The position numbers were made by a program, and so were the translations under genes. Below, one piece after another: positions 19,691 to 32,924 of a stretch of 64,000 bases of DNA. The DNA is taken from the NCBI GenBank assembly GCA_903863905.1, contig CAIPDT010000021.1, positions 1-64,000 of the forward strand, written 5' to 3'. The notes beneath the pieces were generated by a model, which was not told the origin of the DNA, searched no databases, and saw nothing but the letters and a program-made list of their open reading frames with translations. Origin of the DNA: an uncultured Methylococcaceae bacterium (GTDB taxonomy: Bacteria > Pseudomonadota > Gammaproteobacteria > Methylococcales > Methylomonadaceae). Every line of letters starts with the position of its first letter. Within the stretch, counting starts at the first letter, position 1.

Positions 19691-20042
19691 ATTTGTTACA
19701 GAGTATCAGTTCACAGTTTTAATAAGTTTAAGTTCTATTTTGACTTGCGTATTTTGAATCTATTGCCTGCACTCAAGTAGTGCGGTTATGGCAAATATTA
19801 AAAAAGTTGTTTAACATAATTAGATGATATCATAGTTTTTATAAATAGCAATGGTTATTATTTAAAACCTGATGAATTACAATTGAGTTACAGTGAAGTT
19901 GATGTAGGATTGGGTTTGGTGTGATGCGATGATTGTTTCTTTCTTTCTTCTTTATTAATACTAATGAGGCATTATGCGGGATTGTTAAGCGTTGGTGCTT
20001 GAAACTATAGTTGATGTGTTGGTAATGGGGGGTGTCTGATGT

Positions 20043-20087
<45 letters not shown>

Positions 20088-20173
20088 CAACACCAATAAG
20101 TGAATTAATGTTAATGTTAATTAACTTACTGGTTTTGTGTTAAAAGCGTTTGTGTTACTGTGCGTTAATGTAT

Positions 20174-21768: not shown

Positions 21769-24150
21769 TTAAAAACTATGGTTATACGCTAAGCCTACCA
21801 CACTGACTGCATAATTTTGCATGAGTAAGTTGGTTGGCATTAAACCGTTTGCTGTATAGCCAGTTTGTTGATCATTGTAAAAATAGTCGTTGCTGTTTAA
21901 CTTTTGGAACATATACGTTAAAGACAGCTTGCCATTTTTGTAAATGTGGTAATTGCCAATTAGTTTTAGCGTCCACATTTCGTTTTTAATAGGCGATAAC
22001 GCACCGCAAGTGAGCTTAGTAGTGGCTCCACAGGCTGAATCATAAGGCACTTGAGTGGTATAACTGGTCGTGTCTATGGCATACGACAAATCGCCAATAA
22101 ATTCTAACTTATTGTTAAATAGTCCACCCTGACGACCCATAATGCCGACTGTTTGGCTATTGTCATCCAATTGGTTCGTCCAAATATCTCTGGGGAATAC
22201 CGTTTGAGTTCCTAGTGCTGGATTAAATGTATTACCACTAGTTTGGTTATTGCCACTGCGTAAGTTTCTTTGGCCGTTTTGCCAGTTCCAATACGCTGAT
22301 ACATTGCTCTTATCTGTGAAATTGTAGGTGGTATCGACATTAACCCCCGTCGATTTACCATTTTGCACGCCTAATGAAGCATCGTAATTATCGTAGGTAT
22401 AACGACCATTGACTCCCACATCCAGTCTTTGAGTGATTTGCCAATTAACGCCGGCTTTGCCGATGTTTTGATCACGGTTAGCGTAAGGATAAGCAATGTA
22501 GCCCAAGTAGTTGGCCGCATTAAGTGCTGAGTTTGACACGCCGGCGCCGGTAATTGAGTAACTGCCTGCATTCGCTAGGAAATTAGGATCATTATCTGCG
22601 CGACGGATTGCATAGGTGTAGCCGCTGTTAAAGTTAACATTTTCTAAGGCTTTTAAACGATAGGTTAAGTTCATTTTGTCTTCGTTACTGGCAGGACTAG
22701 AGACACATTGAGCGCCACCCTGTACACCATTACACCAACGTTTGATACTTTCGTGTTCATAGCCTAAAGCAATGTTTTGATCTTTAGTTAAGCGATAAGC
22801 GGCACCTGCATCATATTGCATTTTGCGATTGCTGTAAGGTGTGTTAACGCCTGTAAAATTAGCATTACCAATGTCATTGTAAAGGTATTTGTTTGACGAG
22901 GTATTGTTGTCACGCTCGTTAATTTTATAACCCGCTGTCAAAGTCAGGTCTTTAATACTTTGATTGGTTAGTTTAATGTCACCATGCTTGGTTTCTACCA
23001 CACCGTTTAAGGAGTTGGTCGGTAGGCCATTCGCTTGCATCATATTATAGGCAACACCACTTGCTTGAGGAATTAAAGTCGGTGCATAGCTGGAGTTTTG
23101 TTGGTTATAACCATAAGAAAAACCACCGGCGAGTTTAGTCGTCGAGGTAAAATTATAACCGCCTGTTAAATTCGCTTGATGTAAGCTATTGCTGGGCGCG
23201 GTACTCATGGTGTTATTGGAAAAACAATTAACACCGGTACAGGTTCCCACTGCATTAGTAGCCATTGCGCTTTGCCAGTTTAGGCTGTTGTAGTCGTCAT
23301 GAAAGATTGAGCCAAAGTAACCCCCTGTTAAATGACCCTTATCACCTTTCCAATTTAAGGCGGCGTTAACGTTATCTGTTTGATAACTGGTCGGGTTTAA
23401 CAGAATATTAATAGCTTCACCCTTGCTTGATAAAGTGCCAGTGCTTATGCCTGCTTGAGATCCTGTACCAATCAATTTAGCGCCCGATTGATCAATATGT
23501 TTATAGTCAACTTGAGCACTTAATTGCGGGCCAAAATTATAGGTGGTACTAAATGCCCCCGTCTTACGGTTAACTGACTCATTGACGCCTTGGAAGTCAT
23601 TTTTTTGAATAATGCCTTGTGGAGTAACGCCTAGGTTTCGAGTGCCAGGTTGTCCCGATGCCGTGTTAATGGAGCTAAAGTTTGAGGGCAAGGTAAAATT
23701 ATTTTGCCCAGCGTCACCTTGTAAAGGTGTCTGATACGAATCAGTAATATTATGTTGTAACTCATCATAGCCAAGATTAACTTTCCATTTACCTTGATCA
23801 CTGATCGAGCCATCCAATGCTCTGGAGGTGGTGCCTAAATTAGAGCCGCCTAATTTCCAGCGTAAACCGCTGTTGCTATCTTGATTGTAGCCGTTTCCAC
23901 CTCGGATATCTAAACCACCAATACCATAAGCACCTTCGCTATTGATGCCATTATATTGGCCAAAGCGGGCAGAGGACTCAGTCGAGTACATGGTGCCAAA
24001 ATTAAGGTAGTTGCTTGGTTTTGTTAAGGCATCTGTTTCGTCACTGGCTAAAACATTACCACTGAGTGGTAGTGTGATCGTGGTCATTAATGCACAGCGT
24101 ATTGCTAACGCCATGATATTGACTTTCATTTCTTCATTACGAATTTTCAT
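21769..24150 (-). CDS. MtrB/PioB family decaheme-associated outer-membrane beta-barrel protein
   Basis: Signal peptide, about 800 aa barrel, N-terminal GIGGLDIRGGNGY...RWKLGGSNLGTTSR; adjacent decaheme gene. Confidence 0.85.
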   Translation of the reverse strand: MKIRNEEMKVNIMALAIRCALMTTITLPLSGNVLASDETDALTKPSNYLNFGTMYSTESSARFGQYNGINSEGAYGIGGLDIRGGNGYNQDSNSGLRWKLGGSNLGTTSRALDGSISDQGKWKVNLGYDELQHNITDSYQTPLQGDAGQNNFTLPSNFSSINTASGQPGTRNLGVTPQGIIQKNDFQGVNESVNRKTGAFSTTYNFGPQLSAQVDYKHIDQSGAKLIGTGSQAGISTGTLSSKGEAINILLNPTSYQTDNVNAALNWKGDKGHLTGGYFGSIFHDDYNSLNWQSAMATNAVGTCTGVNCFSNNTMSTAPSNSLHQANLTGGYNFTSTTKLAGGFSYGYNQQNSSYAPTLIPQASGVAYNMMQANGLPTNSLNGVVETKHGDIKLTNQSIKDLTLTAGYKINERDNNTSSNKYLYNDIGNANFTGVNTPYSNRKMQYDAGAAYRLTKDQNIALGYEHESIKRWCNGVQGGAQCVSSPASNEDKMNLTYRLKALENVNFNSGYTYAIRRADNDPNFLANAGSYSITGAGVSNSALNAANYLGYIAYPYANRDQNIGKAGVNWQITQRLDVGVNGRYTYDNYDASLGVQNGKSTGVNVDTTYNFTDKSNVSAYWNWQNGQRNLRSGNNQTSGNTFNPALGTQTVFPRDIWTNQLDDNSQTVGIMGRQGGLFNNKLEFIGDLSYAIDTTSYTTQVPYDSACGATTKLTCGALSPIKNEMWTLKLIGNYHIYKNGKLSLTYMFQKLNSNDYFYNDQQTGYTANGLMPTNLLMQNYAVSVVGLAYNHSF

Positions 24151-24169
24151 GATTGTCTCCTTTATTGAG

Positions 24170-25141
24170 TTAGCGTTGTAATAATGCACCGGCAGGGTCG
24201 TTAGAACCATGCACCATGCTGTGGCAATTTAGACAAGCACGACCGGTGTAACTGGTGCTTGGATTCGCAGGTGTTCCAGTAAGTCCACCTTGTATACCTG
24301 CTGCATTACCTGCGGCTGGGTTTTTACTGTTGTGTGGGCCATCATGACATTCATCACACATAAACGGAGGCCGTGATTTTAATAAAGGTGTTACGTTTGA
24401 GCCATGAGGTGTATGGCAGTTTGTACAATCTTCTGTAACGGGTTGATGTTCCCATAAGAACGGACCACGTTTTTCTGCATGGCAGGTATAACAAGTTTCT
24501 GTGACGGTATTTTTTAACAGTAATTTAGGACCCGCAGAGCCATGTGGGTTATGGCAATCAGAACAGGCTATTTTGCCTTCTGGAATCGGGTGATGTGAAA
24601 ATTTGTTCACTTGTGATTTTTGATCAGTATGGCAAGTAAAGCACACGTCTTTTTGAGTGACTTTATCGCGTACTTTGTCATGGGCATTATGCACCACGTG
24701 ACAAGAAGTACAGGCTAGGTCGGCCGCTTGGTGAGCGCCGCCTTGCCAATGAGTTCGGGTGGGATCTTTTTCATGGCATGATAAACAGGCCGTGTTTTGA
24801 TCTTTAGAGGCATTTGGTGCAAAGGCACCGGTGGTTTTAGCGCCAAAAATAACATCGGGAGCTGATTTTTTGCTGCTTAAATGTTTTTCGCTTTGTCCAT
24901 GACAAGATTGGCATGAAGGCGTACGAGAATCGGCTTTATTGCCGTGAGCAGTTTGGTAAATAGATAAGATGGGTTTGGTTTCATTCTCATCATGGCAGGT
25001 GGTACAGGTAGAATCTCTGTCCATTGCTTGAGCGGATATTTGTTTGGGGGCGGGTGTTGCAGAGTCGGTCGGTGTATTTTCAGCGTATGCAGTTCCGACC
25101 AGAAGTCCGCATAGCATGATAATTTTTAATAATGTGTTCAT
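24170..25141 (-). CDS. MtrA/DmsE-like periplasmic decaheme c-type cytochrome
   Basis: Signal peptide and ten CxxCH motifs (CTTCH, CQSCH, CLSCH, CTSCH, CFTCH, CSDCH, CYTCH, CTNCH, CDECH, CLNCH) in 323 aa. Confidence 0.93.
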   Translation of the reverse strand: MNTLLKIIMLCGLLVGTAYAENTPTDSATPAPKQISAQAMDRDSTCTTCHDENETKPILSIYQTAHGNKADSRTPSCQSCHGQSEKHLSSKKSAPDVIFGAKTTGAFAPNASKDQNTACLSCHEKDPTRTHWQGGAHQAADLACTSCHVVHNAHDKVRDKVTQKDVCFTCHTDQKSQVNKFSHHPIPEGKIACSDCHNPHGSAGPKLLLKNTVTETCYTCHAEKRGPFLWEHQPVTEDCTNCHTPHGSNVTPLLKSRPPFMCDECHDGPHNSKNPAAGNAAGIQGGLTGTPANPSTSYTGRACLNCHSMVHGSNDPAGALLQR

Positions 25142-25244
25142 GTTTATATAGTTCCAGCAGTTAATAAGAGTTACATCGCTATCACGCAGCCAGTTGGGTC
25201 TTAGTGGTCTTAGTATAGGGATTTTATATGACAGATATTTGAAA

Positions 25245-25282
25245 TGACTGATCTCGGTAATTTTTAATGACGAGATCAGTCA
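25245..25282. repeat. Perfect 12-bp inverted repeat (possible terminator)
   Basis: TGACTGATCTCG-N14-CGAGATCAGTCA at the 3' end of the cytochrome c gene. Confidence 0.85.
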
Positions 25283-25291
25283 GTTTAATAT

Positions 25292-25642
25292 TTATTTTAA
25301 AGATAAGATGAAATCAACTAAGTTTTGGCCGTCTTTAGGATCTTCGGTTTTTAAAATCTTATGGGCTTCTTCATGTCCATCTTCAAATTTAACATTTTTG
25401 CCCGAAGCAAGGTGTTCTAATAGTTTTGCTTGTGCTTTAGCATCGCCGGCATATTTAGCCGCTATTTTGTTCCAAGCCGGGCCGTCTTTATCTTTATCGG
25501 TGCCGTGGCATCTAAAACAACCGTTTTCTTTCGCTAACGCTTTTGCGGCATCTACATCAACTTCAGCGTGTGCAGTAAAACAAAAAAAAGTCGTTGTGAT
25601 AGCCAGTAAAAAAGTATTTAATTTGAGATTGTTATGTTTCAT
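25292..25642 (-). CDS. Class I-like monoheme cytochrome c
   Basis: Signal peptide, CFRCHGTDKDKDGPAWNKIAAKY. Confidence 0.88.
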   Translation of the reverse strand: MKHNNLKLNTFLLAITTTFFCFTAHAEVDVDAAKALAKENGCFRCHGTDKDKDGPAWNKIAAKYAGDAKAQAKLLEHLASGKNVKFEDGHEEAHKILKTEDPKDGQNLVDFILSLK

Positions 25643-30726: not shown

Positions 30727-31034
30727 AAAAAGAAATTTCACATTCTTATAGGCTTGGAAGTGTGTTGTTTTATAGGGATTTATTATTATCTTATAGTGGG
30801 TATAAAAGAGTTACTCTTGGAAAAGTAGGGTTTTGAAAAAATAAAAAGTTAAGTTATTAATATTTGGCATTGCATTAAGATATGAGAGTGTTAAAATACT
30901 TTAATGTATCAATGGTTGTTGAGTTTATCGTTCGATGACATGATAAATTATAAAATCATTAGGAACCTTGAATAGCTTTTCAATCGCGTTATTTAAGCTT
31001 ATTTGTTTAAATAAATTTATAGAGATAAATATCT

Positions 31035-32132
31035 ATGCTTCATATTAAAAAGATTACTGAGGAAGAGAAGTTAACACTTGAAAATATGAGGAAGAATCAT
31101 CCTGGGTATATGCCAAGAATGAGAGCTCATGCAGTTTTGTTGAGTCAAGATGGTTATCAAGTTAATGATTTGTCAGATTTGTTTGGCGTTTGTAAAAAAA
31201 CGATTGTGGCTTGGCTTCGTGGATGGGCCAATGCAGGTATTTTTGGTTTAATTGATAAGCCCCGTAAAAATTTTTATGGGAAGAGTCAAGATGTCTTAAC
31301 GATCTCTCGTAAGCAAGAAATTAAAAAAATTCAAACTGGCTTAATGAATGGTGAGTTTGAGTTATATTATCAGCCTAAAGTTAATATGCGCACGGGTACC
31401 GTGTCGGGTTTTGAAGCATTAATTCGTTGGAATGATCCCCTGCGTGGTTTATTGCAGCCGAGTGACTTTTTACCTATTATTAATAATCATTCGGTCCATT
31501 CTGAAGTCAGTTCTTATGTAATGGATAGAGCTTTATCTGATCTTAATGAATGGCAAGGTCAGGGCTTGGATACCGTTGTATCGGTTAATGTTGATGAATT
31601 GCAACTCAATGAACACGATTTCTTAGATAAATTAAAGGCCTCTATTGCCAATTATCCTAGTTTTAAAGCGGGCAGTTTAGAGCTTGAGATTTTAGAGATG
31701 AATGCGTTGCTAGATAGAGAGCAAGTACGAACAATCGTCGATAACTGTCAAGTCTTAGGGGTTGATTTTGCCTTAGATGATTTTGGTACGGGTAATTCTT
31801 CTTTAACTTATCTTAAACAAATACCTGTTAAAACGCTTAATATCGATAGAAGTTTTATTAGTGATATTGATAAAGAATCGGTAGATTTGGCGATTCTTGA
31901 AGGGATGGTTTCGTTGGCGTCTATTTTAAAGCGTAGCGTTATTGCCAAAGGCGTTGAAACTGTAGAACAAGGCGATGTGCTTTTAAAAATTGGTTGTGAG
32001 TTAGCGCAAGGTTATGCTATCGCTAAACCCATGCCGATTACCCATATTTTTAATTTTATTAATGATTGGAAACCGTTTGAGTCTTGGCTTAATGCTCCGA
32101 GTATGCAGTTGACTCATAGTTTTAGCGCTTAA
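31035..32132 (+). CDS. IS630-type HTH domain fused to EAL (c-di-GMP phosphodiesterase) domain
   Basis: Residues about 1-85 RMRAHAVLLSQDGYQVNDLSDLFGVCKKTIVAWLRGWANAGIFGLIDKPR; then GFEALIRW, DDFGTGNSSLTYLK, KGVET EAL motifs. Confidence 0.85.
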   Translation: MLHIKKITEEEKLTLENMRKNHPGYMPRMRAHAVLLSQDGYQVNDLSDLFGVCKKTIVAWLRGWANAGIFGLIDKPRKNFYGKSQDVLTISRKQEIKKIQTGLMNGEFELYYQPKVNMRTGTVSGFEALIRWNDPLRGLLQPSDFLPIINNHSVHSEVSSYVMDRALSDLNEWQGQGLDTVVSVNVDELQLNEHDFLDKLKASIANYPSFKAGSLELEILEMNALLDREQVRTIVDNCQVLGVDFALDDFGTGNSSLTYLKQIPVKTLNIDRSFISDIDKESVDLAILEGMVSLASILKRSVIAKGVETVEQGDVLLKIGCELAQGYAIAKPMPITHIFNFINDWKPFESWLNAPSMQLTHSFSA

Positions 32133-32171: not shown

Positions 32172-32199
32172 AATCTCTTTTTATTAAGAGATTTTTTTT
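32172..32199 (+). terminator. Intrinsic terminator downstream of the HTH-EAL gene
   Basis: AATCTCTT-tttatt-AAGAGATT followed by TTTTTT. Confidence 0.8.
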
Positions 32200-32233
32200 A
32201 TCCTAAGATAGGTGATTAACCTATCTTAGGATA
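32199..32233. repeat. Perfect 15-bp inverted repeat between convergent genes
   Basis: TATCCTAAGATAGGT-gatta-ACCTATCTTAGGATA. Confidence 0.9.
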
Positions 32234-32240
32234 GATCAAC

Positions 32241-32924
32241 TTACTTACCGTTTTCTAGTAGACTGTTAAGTTCATTGTTTATCATCGTATCATAATGACG
32301 TTTTAAAATAGAGTCTGTTGGAATATCACGGATCTCAGTGGCGCTAACCGTTTCCGTTGCTGCTGGTGTGGATGTTTCCAATGCAGGACTTGCAGTCGCA
32401 GTTGGGTTATTTTTTAATGACTCATATTGACCAGTTAGCAGATCAAGAAACTCTTTATTCGTTAAGGACTCCACTATAACGCTATTGATATGGTTGGTGT
32501 GGTGACGACTTAAAATAGAGTCTGAGGGTGCTTCACCATAAAGGGTTTCAATACGGTTTTGTAATTCAGCAATCGCGTGACGTCTTTGAATTGAATCTTC
32601 TGGTAGATTATCTGTGGCAGTCTTCGTTGTAGCGGTCTTAGCAGGTGCAGGAGTAACAGTCGCGGGAGGAATAACTTCAACGGCAGGGACAATTACTGCT
32701 TCTGTGGTTGCAGAGGTTTCTGGAGCAACGATAGGTTTTACCGTTTCTTCGACTTTAATCGGTGTTGGTGCTGCTACTTTTACTTGAGGAGCTACAGTGG
32801 GTTTGGGTGTGCTGGTTGGGGGGGTATTTGTTTTTGCTGTAGGTGCGGCTGGTTGGGTGAATTGGCCCAGTATTTTTTTGATAGTAGTAATGATGGTTTG
32901 CAACAAATCGTTCATAGTATTCAC
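32241..32924 (-). CDS. Hypothetical protein, Pro/Ala/Thr-rich with three xDSIxxRH motifs
   Basis: 227 aa; LPEDSIQRRH, APSDSILSRH, IPTDSILKRH. Confidence 0.75.
   Translation of the reverse strand: MNTMNDLLQTIITTIKKILGQFTQPAAPTAKTNTPPTSTPKPTVAPQVKVAAPTPIKVEETVKPIVAPETSATTEAVIVPAVEVIPPATVTPAPAKTATTKTATDNLPEDSIQRRHAIAELQNRIETLYGEAPSDSILSRHHTNHINSVIVESLTNKEFLDLLTGQYESLKNNPTATASPALETSTPAATETVSATEIRDIPTDSILKRHYDTMINNELNSLLENGK

Follow-up and report, generated by a model that had tools for sequence, protein, structure and literature searches.

An HTH-EAL fusion gene with an IS630-type HTH domain and a probably inactive EAL domain in an uncultured Methylococcaceae bacterium

The fusion gene and its genomic site

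The stretch of DNA analyzed here, referred to as the window, comprises 64,000 nucleotides and contains a gene that joins an N-terminal HTH domain of the IS630 type directly to an EAL domain (Table 1). The gene starts with ATG and encodes 365 amino acids with no internal stops and no frameshifts, as expected from the preliminary description, which had treated it as a single intact gene. In Pfam searches, HTH_23 (residues 28-69, E 1.5e-6) and HTH_28 (residues 29-78, E 2e-6) scored above their cut-offs and HTH_29 slightly under (E 1.9e-5), while the NCBIfam IS630 transposase model matched residues 30-78 (E 6.8e-6), below the cut-off of this whole-protein model. The matches from Pfam and NCBIfam agree in placing a transposase-type HTH and an EAL domain in one protein, as previously proposed. 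The HTH had been assigned to residues 1-85; its IS630 character was confirmed, but the homology stops at residues 77-78. GerE, which would indicate an HTH of the LuxR/GerE type, gave no match in Pfam or NCBIfam, and no DDE domain was found with Pfam. None of the inverted repeats found form terminal repeats flanking the locus.

AlphaFold predicted an EAL barrel with pLDDT values > 90 over most of the domain. A fold search with this model returned the EAL structures of MucR, BifA, and MorA, with TM scores of ~0.9 on the target for MucR and BifA. The HTH model, computed from an HTH-only alignment, shows four helices at residues 9-21, 25-39, 43-50, and 54-72 (pLDDT ~90 over residues 11-60), and the linker of residues 79-93 is poorly ordered. 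No significant match resulted from the fold search with the HTH, in which HTHs of the paired-domain, SETMAR, TnsB, and KorA types appeared at E ≥ 0.2.

Table 1. Features of the fusion gene and its surroundings (positions refer to the window).
Feature	Position	Strand	Basis
61-aa ORF, left edge of inserted segment	30541..30726	+	next to TetR in almost every relative examined
Upstream intergenic region, AT-rich, presumed promoter location	30727..31034	+	sequence scan
HTH-EAL fusion gene	31035..32132	+	single open frame; Pfam HTH_23/HTH_28 + EAL
IS630-type HTH domain, residues 1-77	31035..31265	+	identity to solo HTHs and IS630 transposases; AlphaFold
Recognition helix region (KKTIVAWLRGW..), residues 54-72	31194..31250	+	alignment and conservation count
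Fusion junction	31254..31285	+	DNA comparison with solo HTH of genome G025 and GGDEF-EAL gene of contig 148
EAL domain, residues 98-332	31326..32030	+	Pfam PF00563, E 5.8e-63, 213 bits; model matches MucR/BifA
ExLxR metal/substrate motif E127-A-L-I-R131, intact	31413..31427	+	98-domain alignment
D248-D249-F-G-T-G-N254, metal-binding Asps kept, Tyr to Asn	31776..31796	+	98-domain alignment
N269 at the position of the catalytic Lys (RocR K316)	31839..31841	+	K in 97/98 related EALs
K305 at the position of the catalytic Glu (RocR E352, the first Glu in ExxE)	31947..31949	+	E in 97/98 related EALs
Inverted repeat between two convergent genes, probable terminator	32185..32247		inverted-repeat search
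227-aa gene, right edge of inserted segment, no Pfam match	32241..32924	-	synteny in relatives

The gene lies between neighbors that are conserved in related genomes. The 61-aa ORF on its left shows 65-87% identity across relatives and has no Pfam match. In four relatives (G017, G015, G032, and G027) the genes for TetR and the 61-aa protein are directly followed by those for the 227-aa and an mtaD-like protein, and the distance from the 61-aa ORF to the next gene is ~120 bp in G017 compared to ~1.5 kb in the window. In three others (G025, G029, and G006) the site is taken up by signalling genes (a two-component cluster in the case of G025), and a solo HTH gene lies beyond them. Since the site is either empty or occupied by signalling genes in relatives, the window carries a species-specific segment with the fusion as its only gene. 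No strong promoter match was found in the intergenic region upstream of the gene. The same HTH-EAL fusion was found in none of 237 genomes of the family and none of 369 genomes of the class, which bears out the earlier claim of an unusual architecture; among its relatives, the fusion is apparently restricted to one species. The HTH had no match in plasmids or phages, and viral contigs contained no relative of the complete protein. Literature searches on an IS630 HTH combined with EAL yielded nothing relevant.

Elsewhere in the window, genes on the minus strand at positions 21769-25642 encode an outer-membrane porin of the MtrB/PioB type, a multihaem cytochrome whose CXXCH motifs are paired, and a small cytochrome c, which possibly form a porin-cytochrome module for extracellular electron transfer. 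A mechanically called ORF at 19839-20096 (minus strand) opens with a long valine run (LVLVVVVVVVVVVVVVVV), which is a simple-repeat tract. The AMO/pMMO subunit model PF02461 had no match in the host genome, and the control was likewise without a match.

Origin of the HTH and EAL parts

The HTH of the fusion shares 44-69% identity with stand-alone HTH proteins and ~39-49% with aligned full-length IS630 transposases containing DDE_3. Two solo genes for the same HTH are present in the host genome itself (contigs 32 and 112). Within the genus, HTH matches occur in 13 genomes, nine of which have solo forms, with up to six solo genes per genome. Most of these proteins have ~84-96 aa and end directly after '...DKPRSGRPRK', and a DDE domain is absent from those read. 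Solo genes adjoin the pyrG operon in G029, G006, G008, and G022, a second conserved block in G022, G029, and G006, and cysJ-like genes in G000 and G029. In G025, G029, and G006 they are located downstream of uvrC-pgsA-TetR, near genes for FixJ-like response regulators and histidine kinases. Syntenic solo pairs showed dN values of 0.03-0.10 and dN/dS ratios of ~0.03-0.10, indicating strong purifying selection.

A phylogeny of the HTH had been suggested in the preliminary description. In our tree, full-length IS630 transposases surround a clade of the solo HTHs (93/93). The fusion HTH lies inside this clade and pairs with the solo HTH on contig 44 of G025 (91/80, moderate support from an alignment of 77 columns), which is 69% identical to it and has the uvrC-pgsA-TetR neighborhood. 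The branch of the fusion HTH is long (0.46, versus a median end branch of 0.15). Based on the missing DDE domain, the conserved positions, the purifying selection, and the position of the clade among IS630 transposases, the solo HTHs are most aptly regarded as HTH genes domesticated from transposases and inherited largely vertically, one of which was used in the fusion. The notion that the HTH had been taken from a transposase therefore applies to its ancestry, whereas tree and synteny identify the domesticated solo family as the immediate source.

The genes of this solo family, at the loci L149-L167 (e.g., L151:5989-6252, L161:6041-6301, and L164:6013-6303), occupy conserved positions in several species of the genus. 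In seven of these loci (L151, L154, L156, L158, L161, L163, and L165) the start codon is preceded by the hexamer TTAACA at a distance of ~50 bp, ~27 bp, or both. It occurs in 10 of 22 solo upstream regions compared to 2.9 expected by shuffling, these copies being related to each other, and might be an autoregulatory site of the solo HTH genes. TTAACA is absent upstream of the fusion gene.

The EAL domain is closest, at 64% identity, to that of a 721-aa PAS-PAS-GGDEF-EAL protein from the host's own genome (contig 148). Homology to this protein starts at the junction (DKPR followed by KNFYGKSQDVLTISRKQEI in the fusion, GKNQYHIFDRTQDLLIITRNEAV on contig 148), where '...DKPR' of the HTH meets 'KNFYGKSQD', the equivalent of the end of the GGDEF domain and the linker ('GKNQYHIFDRTQD'), with the GGDEF-end motif 'GKNxY'. 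At the DNA level, the sequence is solo-like up to GATAAGCCCCG and donor-like from GTAAAAAT. For the EAL domain and its contig-148 paralogue, dN/dS was ~0.15 at a dS of 1.8, which is near saturation, and for the fusion HTH and the solo HTH it was ~0.16. The mean identity to EAL relatives was 0.500 for the fusion and 0.517 for the contig-148 copy, the former being slightly more diverged. No remnant of the donor was found in the gap upstream of the fusion gene.

Residues of the active site and the recognition helix

The EAL domain was compared with a set of 98 related EAL domains, and RocR numbers were assigned by motif, aided by alignments to solved EAL structures. Every metal- and ligand-contacting position examined is kept in the fusion, which retains the equivalents of Q161, E175, R179, N233, E265, E268, D295, D296, D318, E355, and Q372. 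Three other positions are changed. N254 (DDFGTGNSS) replaces the invariant tyrosine following DDFGTG, and asparagine and lysine occupy the positions of the catalytic residues K316 and E352, both of which are present in the contig-148 relative. K316 is reportedly important in EAL enzymes, a finding ascribed to Rao et al. 2008. The equivalents of both residues being substituted (K316N and E352K), the phosphodiesterase activity of the fusion EAL has probably been lost. E352 of RocR participates in metal coordination (PMC7911125), and exchange of the equivalent glutamate for alanine in TBD1265 abolished phosphodiesterase activity (PMC12943098).

The preliminary description had listed the EAL motifs as retained, which is correct for ExLxR and the two aspartates of DDFGTG but overlooked the exchanges at positions 269 and 254. 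It regarded EALIRW and the change of AEG to AKG as small variations. Isoleucine is in fact normal in this subfamily and the E127-A-L-x-R131 motif is intact, and the AKG change is not minor because K305 takes the place of an essential catalytic glutamate. A role in c-di-GMP turnover, as considered earlier, is therefore unlikely, with two catalytic positions gone and the alanine mutant of one of them inactive in a homologue.

AKGVET was found in eight further EAL domains of the family genomes, only one of which, a partial sequence (L265 in G210), also has the lysine-to-asparagine exchange. A Colwellia PAS-GGDEF-EAL protein (L041) has both exchanges at the K316 and E352 positions. We tested and rejected AKGVET as the mark of a separate EAL class; the two exchanges together are recurrent, though infrequent. 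The pair of exchanges in L041 and L265 suggests a rare, recurrent degenerate EAL type.

In the recognition helix of the fusion, K55 replaces Q55, which is near-invariant in the family, and R54 is also changed to lysine. Altogether, 7 of 35 conserved HTH positions are altered, compared to 0-5 in 23 of 24 solo HTHs. The basic GRPR(K) tail of the solo proteins is missing, the EAL linker being in its place. DNA binding by the fusion HTH is plausible.

Possible function and comparison with known systems

A draft genome of 179 contigs and a single occurrence might raise the suspicion of an assembly chimera or a frameshift artefact, which the preliminary description had named as a refuting condition. 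However, the frame is intact, and the contig continues past the fusion into conserved genes in both directions. As the junction sequence occurs nowhere else in the genome and the two halves differ by 31-36% at the protein level from their nearest relatives, too far to be merged in assembly, such an artefact is highly improbable. We also consider it improbable that the protein is an active trigger phosphodiesterase like PdeL, combining DNA binding with c-di-GMP degradation. The order of HTH and EAL and the retention of most EAL residues would fit, but the equivalents of E352 and K316 are both substituted, and the same glutamate is indispensable in TBD1265. As is thought for YdiV and certain other inactive EAL proteins, the barrel might bind no nucleotide and serve only in protein interaction, dimerizing the HTH and standing in for the absent transposase C-terminus. 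EAL domains dimerize via the region around helix 5 (PMC5301497), but the ligand and metal residues (ExLxR, Asn, Asp-Asp, and Gln) would be needless for such a role and yet are retained, so that there is little probability of dimerization alone.

The main rival, given the altered recognition helix and the lost GRPR tail, is a non-adaptive fusion in decay, i.e., a chance join of duplicated fragments that is still open while both halves are under relaxed constraint. The occurrence in a single species, the combined alteration of recognition helix, active site, and DDFGTGY-loop tyrosine, the long HTH branch, and the lack of a clear promoter all fit this explanation. On the other hand, 365 codons without a stop in AT-rich DNA are not expected of a decaying gene; in a rough simulation, only ~2% of copies remained open at ~0.1 neutral changes per site. 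Moreover, the overall dN/dS of each half versus its relative is well under 1, and all metal- and ligand-binding residues are intact. We therefore regard decay as rather unlikely, but as an explanation of real weight.

Our preferred reading, held with somewhat less than even confidence, is that of a species-specific fusion encoding a one-component DNA-binding protein whose catalytically dead EAL domain binds c-di-GMP and/or dimerizes. The starting part would have been a solo domesticated IS630-type HTH gene like those found downstream of uvrC-pgsA-TetR in relatives. Just ahead of the GRPR tail, this gene would have been joined in frame to the 3′ part, encoding EAL, of a duplicated PAS-PAS-GGDEF-EAL gene. 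In the resulting protein, the HTH would contact DNA, and the EAL domain, devoid of catalysis but with its metal and substrate residues kept, might bind c-di-GMP and/or dimerize, so that its ligand or dimer state would alter DNA binding. We infer activity loss, DNA binding, c-di-GMP binding, and the coupling of the latter two from residues and precedents. FimX and LapD, whose EAL domains are degenerate, bind c-di-GMP via ExLxR (PMC12564702), and PdeL is an HTH-EAL protein that binds its own promoter under c-di-GMP control (PMC5052742). With these receptors and this precedent, DNA binding controlled by ligand or dimer state appears the most likely mechanism, and c-di-GMP sensing by the fusion is possible from its sequence. 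The HTH residue changes, the loss of the GRPR tail, N254, and the slightly greater divergence of the EAL domain argue against this one-component regulator. No orthologue of the fusion is known, and either half may have diverged before the two were joined.

A wider proposal, which we put forward as doubtful though well conceivable, combines two elements: a DNA-binding c-di-GMP sensor, assembled recently in one lineage from a domesticated transposase HTH and a catalytically dead EAL domain, and a genus-level family of solo IS630 HTH regulators, passed on vertically, that supplies DNA-binding parts for fusions of this type. If the protein works, the locus offers a one-step genomic view of the making of a one-component second-messenger regulator, in which a domesticated transposase-derived HTH gene captured the ligand domain of a duplicated enzyme and the active site was lost thereafter. 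Because the empty site and relatives of both donor genes can still be recognized, the steps of this origin are directly testable.

The HTH-EAL plan as such is already known; the combination of a domesticated IS630-type HTH with an inactive-looking EAL domain is new. PdeL (YahA) of E. coli likewise has an N-terminal HTH followed directly by EAL and sets the precedent for c-di-GMP-controlled DNA binding (PMC5052742). Its HTH, however, is of the LuxR/GerE type, and it is an active phosphodiesterase, whereas the fusion EAL lacks the full catalytic set, with two catalytic residues replaced. FimX and LapD share with the fusion the EAL fold, the kept ExLxR motif, and the loss of catalysis, which in the fusion is predicted, but they are not HTH proteins and the residues lost may differ. 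In the manner of a degenerate-EAL receptor, the fusion keeps E127 and R131 and has lost the E352 and K316 equivalents. IS630 transposases (HTH_29/HTH_32 plus DDE_3) have a related HTH, but the fusion locus has neither their DDE domain nor their terminal inverted repeats. The contig-148 protein matches the fusion in its EAL domain and in the linker up to the junction, but possesses intact catalytic residues as well as PAS and GGDEF domains. The solo HTHs of the genus have the same HTH as the fusion, that of G025 also in the same neighborhood, and differ from it in ending with the GRPR tail and in carrying no partner domain.
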